From: an uncultured Crocinitomix sp.
GTDB taxonomy: Bacteria > Bacteroidota > Bacteroidia > Flavobacteriales_D > Crocinitomicaceae
Assembly: GCA_905478225.1 (NCBI GenBank)
Contig: CAJQHR010000049.1
Span: 1-64,000 of the forward strand
DNA length: 64,000 nucleotides
Direction of reading: 5' to 3'
A program made the translations under genes and the position numbers. The notes under the pieces are model-generated. The model saw nothing but the letters and a program-made list of their open reading frames with translations, was not told the origin of the DNA and ran no database searches. Numbering within the stretch: position 1 is the first letter of the stretch; each line of letters begins with the position of its first letter. Below, in pieces: positions 53,880 to 64,000 of this stretch.

Positions 53880-55190
53880 ATGAGGGTAGCTTGTTTGGCA
53901 AATTTGAATAACATGATGTTTATTCTATGTCGCTATCTCCGCGACGTAGGCATAGATGCTCATTTAATTACCTTGTCTGATGAACCGGCTCATTTTAGTC
54001 CGGGTTCGGATTCTTATGATGATGACTATTTGGAATATTACAAGGTATTGCCCGTCACAAAGTCTACACTCTATAAAACAGAATCAATCCAAATTTTAAA
54101 AAAGGAATTGGCTGACTTTGACTTTTTTGTGGGGACGGATATTTCACCAACAATCGTTACACTAATTGGTAAAACATTGGATGTTTTTATTCCTCATGGA
54201 AGCGACATCTACGACTTACCATTTGAGAAAAAAAGGAAGAAAGGAACCAATAAAGTTTGGTGGTTGAGTGAAAAGGAAACATTGAGCAAATTGCAAAATA
54301 TAGGAATTAAAAATACAAAAACGATCCTCTTTCCAGATGAGTATGACATTCATTTCCCCTTTAAAAACAGATTAAAAACCGTTGCGAAATACCACAACAC
54401 CTCTGGTCCCATGGTTTTCATTCCACAATATGATGATTTAGCGAATAATCCATATGTTAAAGACCTACAATGGTATCCATTTTTTAAAAAACTAAGAGAA
54501 GAGAATGACCTGATCATCTTTTCGCATTCCAGACATAACGGATTTAATTTAAGTGCCGAAATGGCCATTCATCAAAAAGGGAACAATATATTGATTGATG
54601 GAGTTGCCAATTTTGTAAAAACACATCCCAAGGTCAAAACTAAGTTAATCTTTTTCGAATACGGAATGGATGTAGACGCTTCAAAAGATCTTATAAAAGC
54701 TCATAAAATTGAGGATCATATTGTTTGGATGCCATTAATGCAACGGAAGGAAATTATGCTAGGCCTAAACATGGCTGACATTTCATGCGGGCAATTTGAC
54801 AACAGTTGGTTGACATGCGGCGTGGTGGACGAGACACTTGCCTCAAACATTCCTCTACTTCATTATAGAGAAGATGCCTTGTATGAAACAGATTATGAAA
54901 CGCTCTACCCTTTAATGAATGCTAAAACCGCTGCCGACATTACAGAAAGACTTGAAGCTTATTCATTGGACAAAGACTATCAGAATAAATTGGCCGAGCT
55001 AGGATCTCAGTGGTTAAAAAAGTATACAGTAGACAATCCGTTGCGGATTATTCAAGCGCAATTTGATTTAAAAACAAAAACAACATTGAGCATAACTGAA
55101 TTAAAAAAGGTGAAATCAATTTTGAAAAAACACCGAACGAAAGATAAAGTTTACCGTGCGCAAGGCAAGATTAAGACAAAGTTTACTTAG
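53880..55190 (+). CDS. GT-B-like glycosyltransferase
   Basis: This 436-residue protein has MRVACLANLNNMMFILCRYLRD as an N-terminal Rossmann strand, a long central region with FVGTDISPTIVTLIGKTLDV and VFIPHGSDIYD, and a C-terminal half with HIVWMPLMQRKEIMLGLNMAD and TCGVVDETLASNIPLLHYRED, in the region where GT4 proteins carry the donor-binding glutamates. The last residues are strongly basic. It is the last gene of the plus-strand arm, and its 3-prime end overlaps the convergent S74 gene by 8 bases. Confidence 0.78.
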   Translation: MRVACLANLNNMMFILCRYLRDVGIDAHLITLSDEPAHFSPGSDSYDDDYLEYYKVLPVTKSTLYKTESIQILKKELADFDFFVGTDISPTIVTLIGKTLDVFIPHGSDIYDLPFEKKRKKGTNKVWWLSEKETLSKLQNIGIKNTKTILFPDEYDIHFPFKNRLKTVAKYHNTSGPMVFIPQYDDLANNPYVKDLQWYPFFKKLREENDLIIFSHSRHNGFNLSAEMAIHQKGNNILIDGVANFVKTHPKVKTKLIFFEYGMDVDASKDLIKAHKIEDHIVWMPLMQRKEIMLGLNMADISCGQFDNSWLTCGVVDETLASNIPLLHYREDALYETDYETLYPLMNAKTAADITERLEAYSLDKDYQNKLAELGSQWLKKYTVDNPLRIIQAQFDLKTKTTLSITELKKVKSILKKHRTKDKVYRAQGKIKTKFT

Positions 55191-57171
55191 TCAATAAACT
55201 TTCTTCAGGAAATGACTCTTCGGTCAATTCTTCTTCACCCATTTTTTGCTCCAACTTAATTAACAATTCGAATAGTTTTTCGCGTTGTGCTTTTAGTTCA
55301 GCCAATTCGGTTTCTAATCCTTCCAATGTAGCAGCCTGCGTTTCTAACAATGCCATTTTTTCATCTAGTGCTTTAATGAGCAATAAATTAATCCCATCAA
55401 AATCACCTGAATTAATCGTGGTTGAATCTGTTCCTAGTTCAAACGTTTTGTGAAAATCTTGCGCCATTGGTCCTATGTGACGAATGCTAGAATCTTGAGA
55501 AATGTACGACCACTCATATACATCAATTTGATCGAGTCGTTGCAAATAATCCTGTGCATCAATACTTACAATATTCTCTTTTCTTTCTCTATCTGACAAA
55601 ATAGACCAAGCTCCAGAGCCTGGAATTAATTCAACACCAGTGGTTAAATCCGCATCAGTATAGAAAACAGTTCCACCGGAAGCTTTTACCATAAATTGAT
55701 TCTCGGCAGTCGTTTCAACATAACCTAGCGCATCAATTTTATCATTAAAAATAAAACTACCGTCATGCAATGCTTCAGCGTGATAACCTATGGCCACTGA
55801 ACTTTCGCCGTGTGCATAAGTGTAGTTTCCTAAAGAAAGCGCATAGGGCGCATCAGCCGTTGGATGGTATCCAATTGCCACCGCACTTTCAGCATGTGCC
55901 AAAGCACCTCTGCCAATTGCGATAGCATGGTCACCCGTTGCTTGCGGATTATGACCCACGGCAAATGCATAATCACCCGAAGAAATTGAAGCATTCCCCA
56001 TTGCCATTGCTCCTTCGCCAGAAGCGGTTGTATTAAATCCGAATGCAACACCGTAATCTCCGGCCGCACGTGCATTATAGCCTGATGCAAATGAATAATC
56101 GCCAATAAACGCTGCATTCCATTGTGCACCTGTTACTTCGCCCGATCGAAACGCGGCTTTATTTGAAAAAAACATCATTCTTGAGCCAGCGCCTTCTATT
56201 GGAATTGCTCCTGAACCAAATTCACCCGTAAACAATGCTCCGTTGACGTTGTTCACATGAAATTCAGATAATGGATCTGCTGTTCCGAAACCAATTAATC
56301 CGTTCGCTTTTATACGCATACGCTCTGTATTATATGATTTAAAGACTAAATCAACAGAATCAATTGTTCCTAAAAAATGATCGGTTTCATTCACATTATC
56401 ATTACCAGAAATTCCCCAATTATTATAAGCGAAAGTTGTCACTCCAGCAGTATCAGCATAAGAAGCCGAATCCGAATAAAACGCGGAATTCCCTTCAAAG
56501 GCAAAGTTTGCAGAATCTGAATAGTACGCATAAAGTGTACTATCAACCAATGTTATATCATCACAATTGTGAGCAAACGTAACTGTATCTGCATAGTTGG
56601 CTACGTCACTATTATAGGCGAAATTAACCGTGTCAGGCACTAAATCTTCAGTTGGAACCCAGTTGACACCGTCCCAAGTTAAAATATCACCAATTGAAAT
56701 TCCTGTAGCATCTACATCTCCCAATTCAGATAGGTTAAATTCTTGCGAAGTGGTTTTAGAATGAAACGCAAAAGGAACCGCCATCATTTGCTTTGTCATT
56801 CGAGAGACGAATGAACCGATATTATCAATGTCAATTAACATCTCTAAAAAATAGATATCTCCCGCCCAATCAATTTCGGCAAAAGAAGTTGAAGTTCCTG
56901 TTCCTGTAGCAGTACCTTCTCCAATATTAGTTGCGAAATGACCTAATTCATTTAATGTAACAACGTGACGTTCTTGCCAAGCGATTTCACCATCAATAGC
57001 GGCGGAGCGAATATTAAATTCTACTCCAATTGTCGCGTCCGACAAAAATCCACCATCCAATCCATGCACTTGGGCTTGATAAGGAATTCCTTCTGGGAAT
57101 CCTTGAGAAAAGACCAAATTAATGCATAACAGGAATATACTAGTTATGATCCAATTCTTCATATAATTCAT
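55183..57171 (-). CDS. S74-domain fibre-like surface protein with YadA-head repeats
   Basis: This 662-residue protein has a signal peptide (WIITSIFLLCINLVFSQ), an N-terminal domain common in Bacteroidota fibre proteins (GIPYQAQVHGLDGGFLSDATI), linkers, and head repeats (about 345-490; for example DYAFAVGHNPQATGDHAIAI). A C-terminal S74 domain (about 545-620) follows, with WSILSDRERKENI (Ser-Asp pair and Lys of the self-cleaving dyad) and RHIGPMAQDFHKTF. A coiled coil (EKMALLETQAATLEGLETE) ends the chain. By family knowledge it would trimerise, and the S74 part would cleave itself off. No T9SS domain is present. Confidence 0.85.
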   Translation of the reverse strand: MNYMKNWIITSIFLLCINLVFSQGFPEGIPYQAQVHGLDGGFLSDATIGVEFNIRSAAIDGEIAWQERHVVTLNELGHFATNIGEGTATGTGTSTSFAEIDWAGDIYFLEMLIDIDNIGSFVSRMTKQMMAVPFAFHSKTTSQEFNLSELGDVDATGISIGDILTWDGVNWVPTEDLVPDTVNFAYNSDVANYADTVTFAHNCDDITLVDSTLYAYYSDSANFAFEGNSAFYSDSASYADTAGVTTFAYNNWGISGNDNVNETDHFLGTIDSVDLVFKSYNTERMRIKANGLIGFGTADPLSEFHVNNVNGALFTGEFGSGAIPIEGAGSRMMFFSNKAAFRSGEVTGAQWNAAFIGDYSFASGYNARAAGDYGVAFGFNTTASGEGAMAMGNASISSGDYAFAVGHNPQATGDHAIAIGRGALAHAESAVAIGYHPTADAPYALSLGNYTYAHGESSVAIGYHAEALHDGSFIFNDKIDALGYVETTAENQFMVKASGGTVFYTDADLTTGVELIPGSGAWSILSDRERKENIVSIDAQDYLQRLDQIDVYEWSYISQDSSIRHIGPMAQDFHKTFELGTDSTTINSGDFDGINLLLIKALDEKMALLETQAATLEGLETELAELKAQREKLFELLIKLEQKMGEEELTEESFPEESLLTK

Positions 57172-59053
57172 TTATGCGTTGCTCGATTTCATCCAGCTTC
57201 GCTTTTTCGTTATCTATTTTTTTTATTACTTCTTCAACCTCAGTGCTTGTAGGCTGATTATTAATTTCATCATTCAATTTTTTAATTCCTAAAAAGGTTG
57301 CCCCATCACTATCAATCATGTTAATGAGATAGGGTTTTTCACCCACGCCAAACGTGCTATAAAAGTCTTGTGCAATTGGTCCAACATGAACCGTATTTTT
57401 TCCAATATAATTCCAAGATAAAACGGCAAGGTTATCAAACTGTGGACTATAATCAATTGGTGTTAATAGTTGAATATTGAACTTTTTATTGCGATCAGAT
57501 ATCATAGACCAACTACCGCCACCCGACGCCAATTCAACCCCCATGGTTAATGCCACATTCGAATAAAATACAAAACCACCGTCCGCTCGAACCATAAATT
57601 GATGATTGGCCGTATTTCTTAAAGTGTCTGTTGTGGAATTGTCCCCATAAACAAAAGAACCGACTTTAGCATCTGAACTCGCATTGGAACCGATAACAGT
57701 AGAAAAATGACCGTTTCCAGTTAGATTTCGGCCCACTACCCAAGCTGTTGCTCCTTCAACCAAAACATTGTTTCCAATTGCCACGCCCGCTGAGGCTACA
57801 TTTGAAGTCACGTTTTTTCCAATGGCAATATTTCTATAATAGTTTGCAATGGCGCTATCACCAAAAGCAAAACTCATATGTGCAACATGACAATCTAAAC
57901 CAGCAGCAAAACTCGAAATTGAAGCATATGGCACCAACTCACCTCCGAAAAAGGAGGTATCACCATAGGTGTTTTTTCCAAAAACGGTGGAATACGGCCC
58001 GTTTGTTCCTACATTTTCTCCCCAAGCAAAACTATAATTCCCTTTTAAGCTATCAAAATCACCCGTCCGTGAGCCGCCATGAATGGCGCTTGTCTCTCCG
58101 TCAAAATAAAAGAAGCTGCCATCAATTTCTGAAATCCCGGCATTGGTATTTGGCGTAATGAGTAATCCACTCACTGTTCCAATTCTAAACCCATCACCAG
58201 GAAAGTTATTATGGGTAGAAAAATCATTGTCAAAAACTAAGCGCGGTGCACTATTCGTTCCAATCACGAATCCTTCATCCACAGTTGGTCCAATAAAATG
58301 ATCAACTCCTAAATCCGAATCGCCGTTAACAGACCAGTTACCCGAAGAATAAAGGGCAACATTTGCCGAATCGGCATAATTAGCAGAATCTGAATTAATG
58401 ATGTGATTAATGGTAAATGCGTAATTAGCAGGGTCTGAAAAATAGCTATAAGTCGCAGTGTCAGCATAATCATTATTGAGGGCGAACCAAGCTGTATCTG
58501 CGAATGTTGTATGTTCGGCTTCCCAGGCGTACTCGGCAGTATCACCAACAGTTATCATTCCAAATGAATAACCTGAACCGTTAAACTGAATGGTGTGACC
58601 GGGTAAATAAGTGATATCGTCTAAATCTACCAAATTAGTCGTTTCAATTGGAGAACCCATTTTTAAACTATGCATAGCGTATGGTACAGACTGCGCTTCA
58701 AATGATCCTTGTAAATAGCGAGTATCACCAAAATGGTAAAGCTCTACTCGGTCGACATCCAACCAATTCATTTCATAAAAATTAGTGATATCCCCAGAAA
58801 TAAAAGTACCCGCACCAAAAGGCAGGGTAAATGTACCTTGACCATATAGAGGAATTCCAGTATGCGATTCGCGCCACATGGTATCACCTGTAATGCTAAG
58901 CACTAAAAACTCAAAATCCGTTTCACTCGAAGTGTTGTTCATGAGTTGTCCCTGAACATTGATTCGATTATAATTTAGTTCTTGTGCATAACCATCCGCA
59001 ACCGTGAAAACAAGACTGAAAACCAATAGGATATGGAGGATTCCTTTTCGCAT
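57140..59053 (-). CDS. S74-domain fibre-like surface protein (paralogue)
   Basis: This 637-residue homologue of the downstream gene has a signal peptide (GILHILLVFSLVFTVADGYAQ), an N-terminal domain beginning NYNRINVQGQLMNNTSSETD, degenerate YadA-head repeats (about 385-475; FAAGLDCHVAHMSFAFGDS, GHFSTVIGSNASSDAKVGSF) and a C-terminal S74 domain with WSMISDRNKKFNIQ and VHVGPIAQDFYSTF. It ends in a coiled coil (EEVIKKIDNEKAKLDEIEQR). Its 3-prime end overlaps the start of the other S74 gene by 32 bases, and its start is 1 base after the T9SS-sorted gene, so all three are translationally coupled. Confidence 0.85.
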   Translation of the reverse strand: MRKGILHILLVFSLVFTVADGYAQELNYNRINVQGQLMNNTSSETDFEFLVLSITGDTMWRESHTGIPLYGQGTFTLPFGAGTFISGDITNFYEMNWLDVDRVELYHFGDTRYLQGSFEAQSVPYAMHSLKMGSPIETTNLVDLDDITYLPGHTIQFNGSGYSFGMITVGDTAEYAWEAEHTTFADTAWFALNNDYADTATYSYFSDPANYAFTINHIINSDSANYADSANVALYSSGNWSVNGDSDLGVDHFIGPTVDEGFVIGTNSAPRLVFDNDFSTHNNFPGDGFRIGTVSGLLITPNTNAGISEIDGSFFYFDGETSAIHGGSRTGDFDSLKGNYSFAWGENVGTNGPYSTVFGKNTYGDTSFFGGELVPYASISSFAAGLDCHVAHMSFAFGDSAIANYYRNIAIGKNVTSNVASAGVAIGNNVLVEGATAWVVGRNLTGNGHFSTVIGSNASSDAKVGSFVYGDNSTTDTLRNTANHQFMVRADGGFVFYSNVALTMGVELASGGGSWSMISDRNKKFNIQLLTPIDYSPQFDNLAVLSWNYIGKNTVHVGPIAQDFYSTFGVGEKPYLINMIDSDGATFLGIKKLNDEINNQPTSTEVEEVIKKIDNEKAKLDEIEQRINELYEELDHN

Positions 59054-59054
59054 A

Positions 59055-59534
59055 TCAAGATTTAACTACTTTTTCATTAAAAAGTGTTCCTTGTTCAGTC
59101 ACCCCGCGCACAAAGTACATTCCACGTTCCCATGTTTCTGAAAGAATTTCAATTTGAGAATCGCTCGTTTCAATACGCTGAATTAGAGCACCGTTAATGG
59201 AATAAATTTCAATCGATATGACAGTCGCTTCGGAATTCGTCCAATTGATTTGTAAAGAACTACTAAATGGGTTCGGATAAATTGAATAAGCGGTTGTAAT
59301 CGTTGACTTCTCAACACTTAGTAATGTATTATTTAATGGATAATATCCATGTTCTAGCAGAGGAGAATCTGATTTGCCTGTCATGATTTGTCCTCCGGCA
59401 ACCAATAATGTATCGTTTGGCGTGATTGAACTAAATACGGCAAAGGTATTCCGCTGCACCGTTTGAGCGCTCAAGCCGAGCGTCAATGCAGAGAAAAGAA
59501 AAAGAAGAGTAGTTTTTAATATAAAATTTGTCAT
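59055..59534 (-). CDS. small secreted protein with T9SS type A sorting domain
   Basis: This 159-residue protein has a signal peptide (LKTTLLFLFSALTLGLSAQ) and a short mature domain (about 22-82) containing NTFAVFSSITPNDTLLVAGG. A complete type A T9SS C-terminal domain follows (about 85-159: IYPNPFSSSLQINW, ISIEIYSINGALIQRI, WERGMYFVRGVTEQG, EKVVKS). Such proteins are carried across the outer membrane by T9SS, and PorQ is encoded at 9461. It starts the operon with the two S74 proteins, which lack sorting domains, and could act as their surface anchor or escort. Confidence 0.85.
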   Translation of the reverse strand: MTNFILKTTLLFLFSALTLGLSAQTVQRNTFAVFSSITPNDTLLVAGGQIMTGKSDSPLLEHGYYPLNNTLLSVEKSTITTAYSIYPNPFSSSLQINWTNSEATVISIEIYSINGALIQRIETSDSQIEILSETWERGMYFVRGVTEQGTLFNEKVVKS

Positions 59535-59604
59535 TCAATGTAAACTAATGGATTCATTTCAATCCGCCTCAAAATTAGCGGTTTATTCTACCAATGTAAA
59601 TTAA

Positions 59605-62010
59605 TTAGTAGTTTTCATTATCCGTGTAGCCACTTCCGTACGTGCTTCCATAACCGTATCCATAACCATATTTATAACCATAAGTGTACTTATAAGTGTA
59701 CTTTGAATAATAATATTGTAGGCTACTTTCTTTGATACCGTTAAGTACTACACCTTTTCCAATGTCGTCAAACTTTTCTAACATTTCATTGATATGCTCA
59801 ACTCCTTTTTTACGAGTGTAGCGCGTGTTCATAATAATCAAGAACATGTCAACATGTCTCGTTAATTCAAGCGTATCGTTTAATAAACCGAATGGTGGTG
59901 TATCTATAATCACATAGTCATACTTTTCATCTACCATATCAATCAATTCGCGCACTTTATCACGCAAAACTAATTCAGATGGATTTGGTGCAATGGGTCC
60001 AGCAGTTATAACATCCAAATTCGGATAAACATCTTTTATTAAGATTTCATCAAAATCACTTTTTCCAATAATGAAATTTGAAACCCCCTTTAAATTTTCT
60101 ATCTTATACATTTTATGCACTTTTGGTCGGTGCAAATCAAAATCTATAATTAGCGTTTTTTTACTTCCCTTCGCAATTAGGTTGGCTAAATTGGTTGAAC
60201 AAAATGTTTTTCCTTCTCCTGGAAAAAATGACGATAACAATACCTTTTTCGCCTTGCCTTCTTTGTCTTCATCTAAAAATGAAAGGTTTGTTCGGATGGT
60301 TCTAAAGCTTTCTGTGACATGAGATTTTGGTTGCGACTCAATCATCAGTGGGCTTTCCATATCTTTCACATGTGGAACACCTCCTGCAATGTTAATTTCA
60401 GACACCTCAGCTAAATCATTCACATTTTCAATTTTCTCAAAAAAGAGTTTACGAACAATCGCTATTAAAAAAGCAAAGATGAATCCGCCAAGTATAAACA
60501 AACGAAGAATTTTAGTTTTATTCGGATAAACAACGCCTGTACCTACCGTTCTTTCAATGATTTTTACCTGAGGAATAATACCCGCACGTGCAATCAATGT
60601 ATTTGTTTTCTTTTCAAGTAAAAAGAGGTACATTTTATTGTTGACATCCAATTCACGCTGAATATTCATGACACCTTGCGCCGACTTTGGTAGCTGGCGA
60701 ATGTCATTTTTATAGTCCCGGATGTATCTATCCGCAATTTCTATTTGTCGATTAAAGGCGCCTAATAAATTCTCTAAATAATTTAAAATATCATTATTGA
60801 GCATGGCTATTTCCTTTCGCGCTTGAATCATAGTTCTATTATCCTCTGATTTTTGCGTCTTATCTATCTCATAACGAATTTGTCTTTTTCGTACTTCTCC
60901 AATGGCTTCTTTTAAATACTCATCATTCTCCTCAATATAAAACGAAGGCGGAAGCACTCTATTATCCTCAGATATTCTTAAATATTCAGTCAATGCAATA
61001 ACAGAACCCTTTTTCTGTTCTAATATTCTTTTATCCTTTGTGAAGGAAATATATTCTGCAAAAAAGTCATCCTCCTCTTTATTAATGTTTAGAATAGCAT
61101 TTTTGTCTTTATACAGCAATAACTCCCGTTCTTTCTCTTGAATTAATATGTGAACCGTGTCAATTTGTTTTTCAATATTGTTCAGTGTGTTTTCATTCAC
61201 TTCCAATTGTTGACGCTTCGAATAATCAACATAGGTATTGGTTAATGTATCCAGATAAACAATCGCCCGATTTGCCAATTCATCATTTACAGAAAGTGAA
61301 ATAACACTCGTGTGCTCAATATTTTCAATATTTAGGCTTGACTGATATTTATTAATCAAATAACTGCGAGAATGAAAGACAATTTCATAATCAGATTCTT
61401 TTAATTCATTGATATTTTCATCATCCAACTCATATCTACGGTCTAGCTGTAAAACAAAATCAGAATTGGTGACTTCTTCATCAAAACTATAGATATACTC
61501 CAAGTTTGCCCCACCAACCGTATAAGCAATCCTATATTCATCCTTATTTAAAATTGTGACCTGAATCGGCACTTCATGCAACTGCGGGTTTAACACCGTA
61601 ACAGTTGATTTAAACGGCAAGGTTTCAAAAACCTCCACTTTTTTAATTCTACCTACCACATAATATGATGTTCCGATATTAATTTTATCGATCACCTCAC
61701 CAATTAAATCCCGTGAGTTTAAAATTCGAATTTGATTTTGAACATCCATATAGACCCCATAAGCTCCAAGCCCTTTATAAATTGGATCTTGATAATCGTA
61801 AGTTTCGTTTGACTTTAATAATAACTCGGCTTTTGCTCCGTAAATATTTGTTAGTCGATAAGTATACACATACCCAATAGCATAAGCTATAAGCGGAATC
61901 GCTATAATGAATCCTAAATTTTTAAGGATCATTTTCCAAATGAAAATAATATCCTTTGATTCAATTAATTTATTGGTAGGCGTATTCTTGTTTTGATTAT
62001 TTGTTTGCAT
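59605..62010 (-). CDS. Wzc-like polysaccharide co-polymerase with tyrosine kinase domain
   Basis: This protein has about 801 residues (812 if the ATG at 62043 is used). The N-terminal Wzz-type domain has one membrane helix near residue 30 (FIIAIPLIAYAIGYVYTYRL), a long periplasmic coiled-coil region, and a second membrane helix near 500 (LFILGGFIFAFLIAIVRKLFF). The C-terminal BY-kinase domain shows Walker A FFPGEGKTFCSTNLA, Walker A-prime LIIDFDLHRP and Walker B YDYVIIDTPP. A tyrosine cluster at the end (YKYTYGYKYGYGYGYGS) is the likely autophosphorylation tail. It regulates polymer length and export. Confidence 0.92.
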   Translation of the reverse strand: MQTNNQNKNTPTNKLIESKDIIFIWKMILKNLGFIIAIPLIAYAIGYVYTYRLTNIYGAKAELLLKSNETYDYQDPIYKGLGAYGVYMDVQNQIRILNSRDLIGEVIDKINIGTSYYVVGRIKKVEVFETLPFKSTVTVLNPQLHEVPIQVTILNKDEYRIAYTVGGANLEYIYSFDEEVTNSDFVLQLDRRYELDDENINELKESDYEIVFHSRSYLINKYQSSLNIENIEHTSVISLSVNDELANRAIVYLDTLTNTYVDYSKRQQLEVNENTLNNIEKQIDTVHILIQEKERELLLYKDKNAILNINKEEDDFFAEYISFTKDKRILEQKKGSVIALTEYLRISEDNRVLPPSFYIEENDEYLKEAIGEVRKRQIRYEIDKTQKSEDNRTMIQARKEIAMLNNDILNYLENLLGAFNRQIEIADRYIRDYKNDIRQLPKSAQGVMNIQRELDVNNKMYLFLLEKKTNTLIARAGIIPQVKIIERTVGTGVVYPNKTKILRLFILGGFIFAFLIAIVRKLFFEKIENVNDLAEVSEINIAGGVPHVKDMESPLMIESQPKSHVTESFRTIRTNLSFLDEDKEGKAKKVLLSSFFPGEGKTFCSTNLANLIAKGSKKTLIIDFDLHRPKVHKMYKIENLKGVSNFIIGKSDFDEILIKDVYPNLDVITAGPIAPNPSELVLRDKVRELIDMVDEKYDYVIIDTPPFGLLNDTLELTRHVDMFLIIMNTRYTRKKGVEHINEMLEKFDDIGKGVVLNGIKESSLQYYYSKYTYKYTYGYKYGYGYGYGSTYGSGYTDNENY

Positions 62011-62043
62011 ACTTTTATTCACTCTTCTTACCGCTCGATTCAA

Positions 62044-62462: not shown

Positions 62463-64000
62463 ATGAAAACACAATTACGCTACTCTTTTGAATTTATTGG
62501 ATTCGCCTGCGCATTTCTTATCTCTGCAACAACATATGCTCAATCCGGCCCAGCTGGAGTTGGATCAAGCACATCTAACCAAGTATGGTTAGATGCCCAT
62601 TCATTAGATATTCCTGACGGTACATCAATTGCATCATGGTCAGATTTATCAGGAAACGGATCGGATTTTACGCAAGGAGCTTCGGAAAGACAACCTACTT
62701 ATAATATTTCTGGAATTAGCGGCATTTCTTCATTATCATTTGATGGTGTTAATGACGTTTTGGCTTCAGGTTCAATTCCAGCTTTGGAATCAGCTAACAT
62801 AACTTACTTTATAGTTTATGACAGAACGACTCTTACGAGTGACATGCTAATCAACGCTGATTATACATCCAGCTTTAGAAAGTGGAGAACATATATGAAT
62901 AATGGTCAAAATACTGTTTATAGCGTGCATTTTTCGCCCGGTATCAATTGGGTTCGTTATACCGATCCAGTTGGCGCTTCTTTTTTATCAACACACATAA
63001 CCCCAACTACGAATTCAATTTATAACCAAGGTAATTTAGAGCTATCTAAATCAGCAACTTACACAGTTCCAACTGGGCACAATGCTGTATTCGTTGGAAA
63101 TAAAGACGCTACCGCGATAAGCCTTTACACTTTCACAGGAGAGATTGCGGAAGTAATTGTATACAACGAGACTTTAAATCCCTTAGAAAGAATTTTAGTT
63201 GAAAACTATTTGGGTGCAAAATATGATATGACTATCCCTACCGATCATTACGCATACAATGCCTCACATAGATTTGGTTTAATAGGAATTGCAGATGACG
63301 GGACAGATACGCAAACAACTTCAAAAGGTGCAGGCCAATTAGAAATTTCAGGTGCAACAGACTTAGATTCAGATGAATATTTCCTAATTGCGCACACCGA
63401 TTTTTCATTCACCACGTACACGGGTGCTGATTTACCCATAGGCCTCCCGGAGCACGAGCGCTTGGAGAGAACTTGGCGAGTTGGAGAAACTGGTGACGTT
63501 GACACGGTTACTTTGACATTTCAACTAACTGGTGCCGATTTTGCAGCGTCAGACTCTTATCTTGTTTTAACAGATGATGATGGTGATTTTACGGATGCCA
63601 CATCTACTGCTGGAACTTATGATGCCATTACTCAAACGGTAACTTTTGATATTGATTTTGATGACGGAGACTATTTCACACTATCTGGAATTCCTGAAGT
63701 TCTTGTTATCCATTCAGTAGATGATGGACTTTGGAGTGATGTTGACACATGGGATTGTGTTTGCATTCCAGGAGAAAATGACTCAGTTTATATTGACCCT
63801 GCAACGGAAGTTACGGTGGACATTGATGGCTACGTTGACTTTTTAAGAGTTGAATTTACAGCGAACCTCATTATGGATACGGATGTTACTTTAGAGATTA
63901 ATGGAGATTTCGAAATGGCTGGGGATACAGAATTTACTGACGGAACGGTTTCCTTTACAGGTGAAGTTGCGCAAGACATAACAATTATTTCAACTGCGGC
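62463..64000 (+). CDS. large secreted T9SS-type surface protein, N-terminal part (runs off window)
   Basis: The ATG at 62463 opens a frame with no stop to the right edge (more than 510 residues). A signal peptide (FIGFACAFLISATTYAQ) is followed by a LamG/concanavalin-like domain (about 45-265; VWLDAHSLDIPDGTSIASW, ISSLSFDGVNDVLAS, GEIAEVIVYNETLNPLERIL). A linker domain (about 270-415, DDGTDTQTTSKGAGQLEIS) and a region starting WSDVDTWDCVCIPGENDSVYI follow, the latter typical of G8-like or carbohydrate-binding modules in T9SS proteins. No sorting domain can be seen because the end is missing. It is probably an adhesin or surface-layer component. Confidence 0.85.
   Translation, partial: MKTQLRYSFEFIGFACAFLISATTYAQSGPAGVGSSTSNQVWLDAHSLDIPDGTSIASWSDLSGNGSDFTQGASERQPTYNISGISGISSLSFDGVNDVLASGSIPALESANITYFIVYDRTTLTSDMLINADYTSSFRKWRTYMNNGQNTVYSVHFSPGINWVRYTDPVGASFLSTHITPTTNSIYNQGNLELSKSATYTVPTGHNAVFVGNKDATAISLYTFTGEIAEVIVYNETLNPLERILVENYLGAKYDMTIPTDHYAYNASHRFGLIGIADDGTDTQTTSKGAGQLEISGATDLDSDEYFLIAHTDFSFTTYTGADLPIGLPEHERLERTWRVGETGDVDTVTLTFQLTGADFAASDSYLVLTDDDGDFTDATSTAGTYDAITQTVTFDIDFDDGDYFTLSGIPEVLVIHSVDDGLWSDVDTWDCVCIPGENDSVYIDPATEVTVDIDGYVDFLRVEFTANLIMDTDVTLEINGDFEMAGDTEFTDGTVSFTGEVAQDITIISTA

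Follow-up and report, generated by a model that had tools for sequence, protein, structure and literature searches.

The subject of this work is a group of three genes on the minus strand of a 64,000-nucleotide stretch of DNA from an uncultured Crocinitomix sp. (assembly GCA_905478225.1, contig CAJQHR010000049.1, positions 1 to 64,000), which is referred to below as the window. The first gene encodes a small protein with a sorting domain of the type IX secretion system (T9SS), and the other two encode long proteins, fibre A and fibre B, that end in a Peptidase_S74 (S74) domain and begin with a domain resembling the N-domain of the mosaic adhesive trimer (MAT) fibres of Bdellovibrio. A preliminary description of this DNA had tentatively read the three genes as a surface fibre, with S74 domains that trimerise and cut themselves off and with the small protein as T9SS anchor. 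The three open reading frames (ORFs) are real and form one unit. The genes and their domains are as follows.

59055..59534, minus strand: small protein gene (159 aa), with a signal-peptide-like start, a mature part of about 55 residues and a T9SS type A sorting domain
59067..59282, minus strand: T9SS type A sorting domain, small protein residues 85-156 (PF18962, TIGR04183)
57140..59053, minus strand: fibre A gene (637 aa), with a signal-peptide-like start, a MAT-like N-domain and a C-terminal S74
58640..58960, minus strand: N-domain of fibre A (canonical N-domain profile, E 1.6e-6)
57356..57499, minus strand: Peptidase_S74 of fibre A, with SDRNKK at residue 519
55183..57171, minus strand: fibre B gene (662 aa), with a signal-peptide-like start, a MAT-like N-domain, YadA-head repeats and a C-terminal S74
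56737..57102, minus strand: N-domain of fibre B (canonical N-domain profile, E 4e-24)
55867..55941, minus strand: best of four YadA_head stretches, fibre B residues 411-435 (PF05658, 67.9 bits)
55441..55596, minus strand: Peptidase_S74 of fibre B, with SDRERK at residue 526

The order on the minus strand is small protein gene, fibre A, fibre B. A single nucleotide (59054) separates the first two, in place of the overlap of one base reported in the preliminary description. The 32-nucleotide same-strand overlap of fibre A and fibre B reported there (57140-57171) is correct, and it is kept at 20-32 nucleotides in relatives that have both genes on one contig. All three proteins start with an N-terminal signal-peptide-like stretch, read from the sequence by eye and not with a predictor, which agrees with the signal peptides ascribed earlier to both S74 proteins.

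The sorting domain makes up the second half of the small protein. It scores 48.4 bits with PF18962 (Por_Secre_tail, cut-off 27) and 45.9 bits with TIGR04183 (cut-off 23), which confirms the sorting domain described earlier. Pfam and NCBIfam scans found no sorting domain in fibre A or fibre B, again in line with the earlier account. The S74 domain of fibre B is clear (42.2 bits in hmmscan and 46.7 bits in the genome search, cut-off 22), that of fibre A is borderline (21.8 and 25.9 bits, respectively), and the Ser-Asp/Lys dyad is, as had been noted, intact in both as SDxxxK. These two proteins are the only PF13884 matches in their own genome. YadA-head repeats had been ascribed to both fibres and are present in fibre B; fibre A has no Pfam YadA match at E<=1 and a weak NCBIfam match to the adhesin Ata (E 2e-4, far below the cut-off). 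Among PDB sequences, fibre B matches the adhesin BpaC and, through residues 279-367, the structure entry of the Bdellovibrio MAT Bd2133, while fibre A has no match at E<=1. Judged from the sequence, YadA-head repeats combined with S74 make a trimeric surface fibre likely.

The N-domain of fibre A is diverged; it is related to the canonical profile with a profile-profile probability of 97% (E 3.4e-11). Thirty-nine of 40 N-domains scanned match NF053851 (Bdello_MAT_N) with a best E of 4.8e-12, and no other NCBIfam model was found for these 40 at E<=0.01; the bit scores inspected, 27-38, are below the curated cut-off of 60. Against the same model and cut-off, fibre A gives 28.1 bits (E 1.6e-6), and fibre B gives 28.4 bits as a whole protein and 29.8 bits (E 4.4e-7) as the domain alone. 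AlphaFold2 predicts the fibre B N-domain to be a beta-sandwich (mean pLDDT 78.8). Foldseek returned 0 matches of this model to PDB folds at E<=0.001 (best 0.013), and VIA-align 2, which re-examined 998 of the 1000 chains ranked best by Foldseek, reached a Z of 6.8 at most, with generic beta-sandwiches. Its second-ranked match covers residues 1067-1158 of PorU, within the PorU C-terminal domain, and is not trusted.

The relatives were surveyed in 100 genomes of the family, 150 of the order and 247 of the phylum. The trio, with the gene order that the preliminary description had proposed to check, is kept in 8 of the 100 family genomes, namely its own, six others of its genus and one of another genus (G042), with junctions of 1 nucleotide or similar; in G089 its genes are divided among contigs, with fibre B present as a fragment. 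A profile of the N-terminal part of the small protein matches the same eight genomes and one marginal place (E 9e-4) that contains a stop. Because the trio recurs in this way, with the profile confined almost entirely to the same genomes, it is more than a chance arrangement. Scanning genome contigs with the small protein gave 23 loci, and a near-full-length match in a protein of similar size was present only in L003 (residues 1-159) and L004 (residues 6-158); L011 matches residues 15-142, within an 894-aa ORF. L003 and L004 hold the same three genes in the same order, with a 1-nucleotide gap and a 32- or 23-nucleotide overlap; they are contigs G047:C9 and G081:C158 and are counted once only. 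An S74 match is present in 61 of the 100 family genomes. The genus members G011 and G031 gave no S74 match in this survey, and G011 has a canonical N-domain fibre adjoined by a canonical small domain.

In Bacteroidota, the small gene goes with the N-terminal MAT-like domain of the fibres, not with S74. At least 150 S74 matches were listed in the family; two are the window's own, and 122 of the 148 others lie in the regions examined, with 26 outside. These 122 correspond to 114 distinct ORFs, as double matches were merged and one match gave no ORF. N-domains, small domains and sorting domains were called with a simple ORF caller and custom profiles derived from these loci, and the sequences behind the profiles included members of the family survey. 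Among the matches listed, 42 of the 114 ORFs have an N-domain of the type YQAVVRD...SVPYALYA, and 34 of the 42 have the small gene, either directly (28) or as the second fibre of a trio (6); the remainder have a small sorted gene downstream (2), a barrel-like gene upstream (3) or none of these (3). The 72 ORFs without N-domain include 7 that had no upstream data, and a small sorted gene precedes 1 of the other 65. A sorting domain after S74 is found in 20 of the 72 ORFs without N-domain vs none of the 42 with it. S74 was therefore rejected as the partner, since it goes without the small gene when the N-domain is missing and since N-domain fibres without S74 do have the small gene. The preliminary description had tied the small gene to S74 fibres; the pairing stands, S74 as its determinant does not, and S74 homologues that lack the small gene, held there to speak against the system, are misleading when all S74 proteins are pooled.

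Two details of these S74 loci may be added. The barrel-like upstream genes (L084:4035-4667, L100:4837-5484 and L102:4403-5032) encode 209-215 aa; two match OMP_b-brl just below the cut-off (E 2e-6 and 4e-6), the third has no match, and a barrel-like gene in the place of the small gene is possibly an alternative anchor. S74 ORFs that lack the N-domain and carry their own T9SS sorting domain include L045:1287-2243, L052:5368-6393, L056:5157-6632 and L060:2037-3506. If S74 cuts itself off, a sorting domain placed after it would leave too.

The pairing extends well beyond the family. With the canonical N-domain profile, matches were obtained in 116 of the 150 order genomes and in 59 of the 247 phylum genomes. 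For the N-domain and small-domain surveys, loci were taken from the 30 best matches, and 60 further regions were hand-picked down the listings. After removal of duplicate loci and addition of the family loci, upstream data were available for 164 distinct N-domain fibres, and 127 of these are preceded by a small sorted gene, 116 directly and 11 in tandem. When five locus sets were pooled, the small gene was direct in 92 of 128 and tandem in 6, with a median gap of 6 nucleotides; as a control, other genes in these loci were examined, and 2 of 108 follow a small sorted gene, with a distance limit of 60 nucleotides for control genes and 250 for fibres (88 of the 92 fibre gaps are <=60 nucleotides). 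The small gene lies directly upstream in 28 of 30 fibres among the best matches of the order survey, and in 25 of 33 among those of the phylum survey, where 3 more stand behind a tandem fibre; two further locus sets gave 17 of 20 and 13 of 22. Conversely, an N-domain fibre comes after 28 of the 29 small genes taken from the best matches of the small-domain profile, and the 29th has an N-domain fragment 356 nucleotides further on. None of 109 complete N-domain fibres carries a sorting domain, as judged with two custom sorting-domain profiles. The small gene also precedes N-domain fibres without S74, whose tips are collagen-like or of other kinds. Collagen repeats were found in four of seven N-domain fibres of relatives scanned with Pfam, and of these four, one has an Lcl_C tip and one has S74; the other three, whose sequences end at the locus edge, have no Pfam match.

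The N-domain is strongly expanded in genus g65, where three genomes (G182, G184 and G199) have 15 to 19 matches per genome of about 2.5 Mb. In addition, two IMG/VR viral contigs carry a small gene and an N-domain fibre (L256:3446-5386 and L257:3479-4669) with gaps of 12 and 9 nucleotides; these pairs are possibly phage-borne surface genes or host flank.

SprA was searched as a T9SS component. The window's own genome has it (TIGR04189, 2382 bits, at G000:C1), and so do 190 of the 247 phylum genomes, including all 59 with the N-domain according to a comparison of the lists by eye. The N-domain is found in none of the 57 SprA-less genomes (Fisher 2e-8).

The best reading of these data is that the trio belongs, with its two fibres, to a widespread surface-fibre system of two components in which the small protein acts in trans as T9SS adaptor and anchor, and we give it about an even chance of being right. 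A surface fibre with T9SS function supplied by the small protein, as in the preliminary description, remains the preferred idea, with the determinant changed from S74 to the N-domain. The first component would be a secreted protein of very small size that carries a T9SS type A sorting domain, and the second a MAT-type fibre with a constant N-domain, a stalk and an exchangeable tip, lacking its own sorting domain. Both are predicted to enter the periplasm via Sec. The T9SS translocon would then take the sorting domain of the small protein, and the fibre, attached through its N-domain to that protein's mature part, would be exported along with the small protein and then held by it at the surface. 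The bound fibre could follow the small protein or be caught by it. Type A cargo leaves SprA with the sorting domain first and together with PorV, as PMC10994853 describes, and PorU removes the sorting domain and attaches the cargo to a glycolipid, with some cargo released instead (PMC10202324). The fibre would be oriented with its N-terminus at the cell and its tip outward, where it may serve in adhesion. In the window, S74 would trimerise the fibre and then release itself by cleavage at Ser519 in fibre A or Ser526 in fibre B, which would leave fibre B with a YadA-head-like tip; both fibres are probably self-trimming.

The evidence counted for this reading is the conservation of the trio, the pairing in both directions, the sorting domains (0/109 vs 20/72), SprA, the barrel-like substitutes and the 39/40 matches to NF053851. 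The wide recurrence of the pairing in the phylum suggests a way in which such fibres are brought to the cell surface and kept there. In its broadest form, the idea is that a secretion signal in trans is used across Bacteroidota, where a separate T9SS adaptor of about 150-180 aa exports and anchors MAT-type fibres that have no sorting domain, and the tips that follow the constant N-domain (S74, YadA-head, collagen and others) are exchangeable; this generalization is plausible, and we rate it a little short of even. If it is true, the N-domains of Bdellovibrio MATs are predicted to bind an analogous surface protein.

Several results weigh against the adaptor and anchor role. In the AlphaFold2 model of the small protein, the mature part (residues 23-80) has a pLDDT of <50, about 40, and no confident fold. 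Compared by hhalign, the mature small domain of the window and its canonical counterpart are not detectably related (probability 0.2 and 0.1%), and a single mature domain common to the window and the canonical pairs is unsupported for this reason. In a mirror-tree comparison of 95 pairs, the small mature domain and the fibre N-domain gave a rho of 0.64; the mature domain is not specially coupled, because the sorting domain gave a higher rho with the N-domain (0.69), and the method was dropped as evidence of contact since the signal is not specific. The contact between small protein and fibre is putative, and contact-type tests were neutral or negative. No small gene was called upstream of 37 of the 164 N-domain fibres, in some cases perhaps because the simple ORF caller missed it, and the pairing drops to 9 plus 3 tandem of 23 among weaker N-domain matches. 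The earlier statement that the three genes are inseparable was consequently too strong. The correlation with SprA is confounded by phylogeny, as 17 of 20 listed SprA-less genomes belong to family f28. Finally, Bdellovibrio, which we take to lack a T9SS, has MATs at its surface, so the N-domain presumably needs no T9SS in general.

The fibre class itself is known. According to PMC10769870, the signal peptide of all 21 Bdellovibrio MATs is followed by a beta-rich domain of about 130 aa, 13 of the 21 end in S74 with SDxxxK, and Bd3182 self-cleaves at Ser782; the same study states that what the N-domain binds at the surface is still to be identified. MATs such as Bd3182 of Bdellovibrio bacteriovorus share with the window fibres the signal peptide, a related N-domain directly after it, the fibre body and the S74 SDxxxK tip; unlike there, a T9SS-sorted small gene precedes the fibres here, and the NF053851 scores stay below the curated cut-off. 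The main text of PMC10769870 contains no mention of T9SS or Bacteroidetes/Bacteroidota that we could find. For the missing surface partner of the MAT N-domain, the Bacteroidota genomes offer a candidate, the neighbouring small gene. The preliminary description did not know the trio as a described system. This needs qualification for the fibres, which resemble the class described in PMC10769870, and it agrees with our finding no description of a small T9SS-sorted partner for MAT-type or S74 fibres in open-licence papers, PMC9251779 and PMC11285876 among them, taken without their supplements.

Other systems share single features with the trio. The adhesins RemA and RemZ are T9SS type A cargo and have the same type of sorting domain as the small protein; there it is part of the adhesin itself (PMC10202324 and PMC10994853), whereas here the two are separate proteins. 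T9SS type B substrates and their cognate SprF-like shuttles are likewise encoded in pairs, one product helping to bring the other to the surface; in that case the helper is a barrel shuttle, and the cargo retains its own sorting domain (PMC12618676). Trimeric autotransporter adhesins (YadA, BpaC) have YadA-head repeats in common with fibre B; a type Vc autotransporter was rejected, as hmmscan of the fibres found no C-terminal YadA membrane anchor and the C-terminus is S74. Endosialidase-type phage tail spikes share the S74 chaperone-protease with SDxxxK, whereas the window proteins have signal-peptide-like starts, a MAT-like N-domain and a chromosomal polysaccharide locus.

An alternative, which we consider rather unlikely, is that the small protein serves as anchor only, so that the fibre takes some other path across the outer membrane, which the MAT fibres of Bdellovibrio must also do, and the small T9SS protein, fixed to surface glycolipid, merely captures the N-domain. 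The lack of a T9SS that we assume for Bdellovibrio would fit this, as would the three N-domain fibres in which a barrel-like gene replaces the small gene upstream. MAT fibres do reach the Bdellovibrio surface (PMC10769870). Nevertheless, no other export route was found, none having been sought, and S74 fibres do use the T9SS, because 20 of the 72 without N-domain carry a sorting domain of their own.

Less probable still is that the products are co-expressed and unattached, the small protein being a separate surface product, a periplasmic chaperone or an assembly regulator. The mirror-tree result without special coupling of the mature domain and the undetectable relation of the window and canonical small domains are both consistent with it. 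Tight pairing in both directions and complementary sorting domains (0/109) would be unexpected for unrelated products, however, and a surface sorting domain is a poor fit to a purely periplasmic role. A prophage or phage-tail remnant, with the S74 proteins as tail fibres and the small gene as bystander, is very improbable and was rejected, for although phage tail spikes are the best-known proteins with S74 and the N-domain occurs on three viral contigs, all 7 testable genomes have the trio within a conserved polysaccharide locus, and a one-pattern scan of viral sequences confirmed only these 3 relatives, two with the same small gene and fibre pair and the third starting at a contig end.

The polysaccharide-locus setting of the trio is conserved. 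The neighbouring features are listed below.

59605..62043, minus strand: Wzc-type polysaccharide tyrosine kinase, the conserved upstream neighbour, outside the trio (TIGR01007, 164.5 bits, cut-off 108)
59570..59577, minus strand: TAnnTTTG promoter-like element, 43 nucleotides before the small gene (motif comparison among relatives)
53880..55190, plus strand: convergent glycosyltransferase-like gene (weak assignment, Glycos_transf_1, E 0.05)

The "glycan kinase" of the preliminary description is this Wzc-type tyrosine kinase, which adjoins the trio in 7 of 7 testable genomes; G081 is excluded from this count, as its contig ends before the position of the kinase. In the window, G047, G060, G071, G097 and G089 (where it is a contig-edge fragment), the kinase is the next gene upstream and has the same direction; in G042 it lies upstream beyond two genes that read like the polysaccharide ABC transporter of the window. 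The element TAnnTTTG, which we take to be the Bacteroidota promoter consensus, is found at -41 in G047, G060 and G097 and at -15 in G071, and it is absent from the 150 nucleotides before the small gene in G081 and G042; G089 was left out of this comparison. On the other side, fibre B and the convergent glycosyltransferase-like gene overlap by 8 nucleotides (55183-55190). A homologue of the latter is on the same side in G047, G060, G071, G081 and G097, separated from the trio by another gene in G047 and G097. Beyond the kinase, a long secreted-looking ORF (62463-64000, plus strand) is divergent from wzc and runs off the window end, and a similar ORF start adjoins wzc in L036 and L037.

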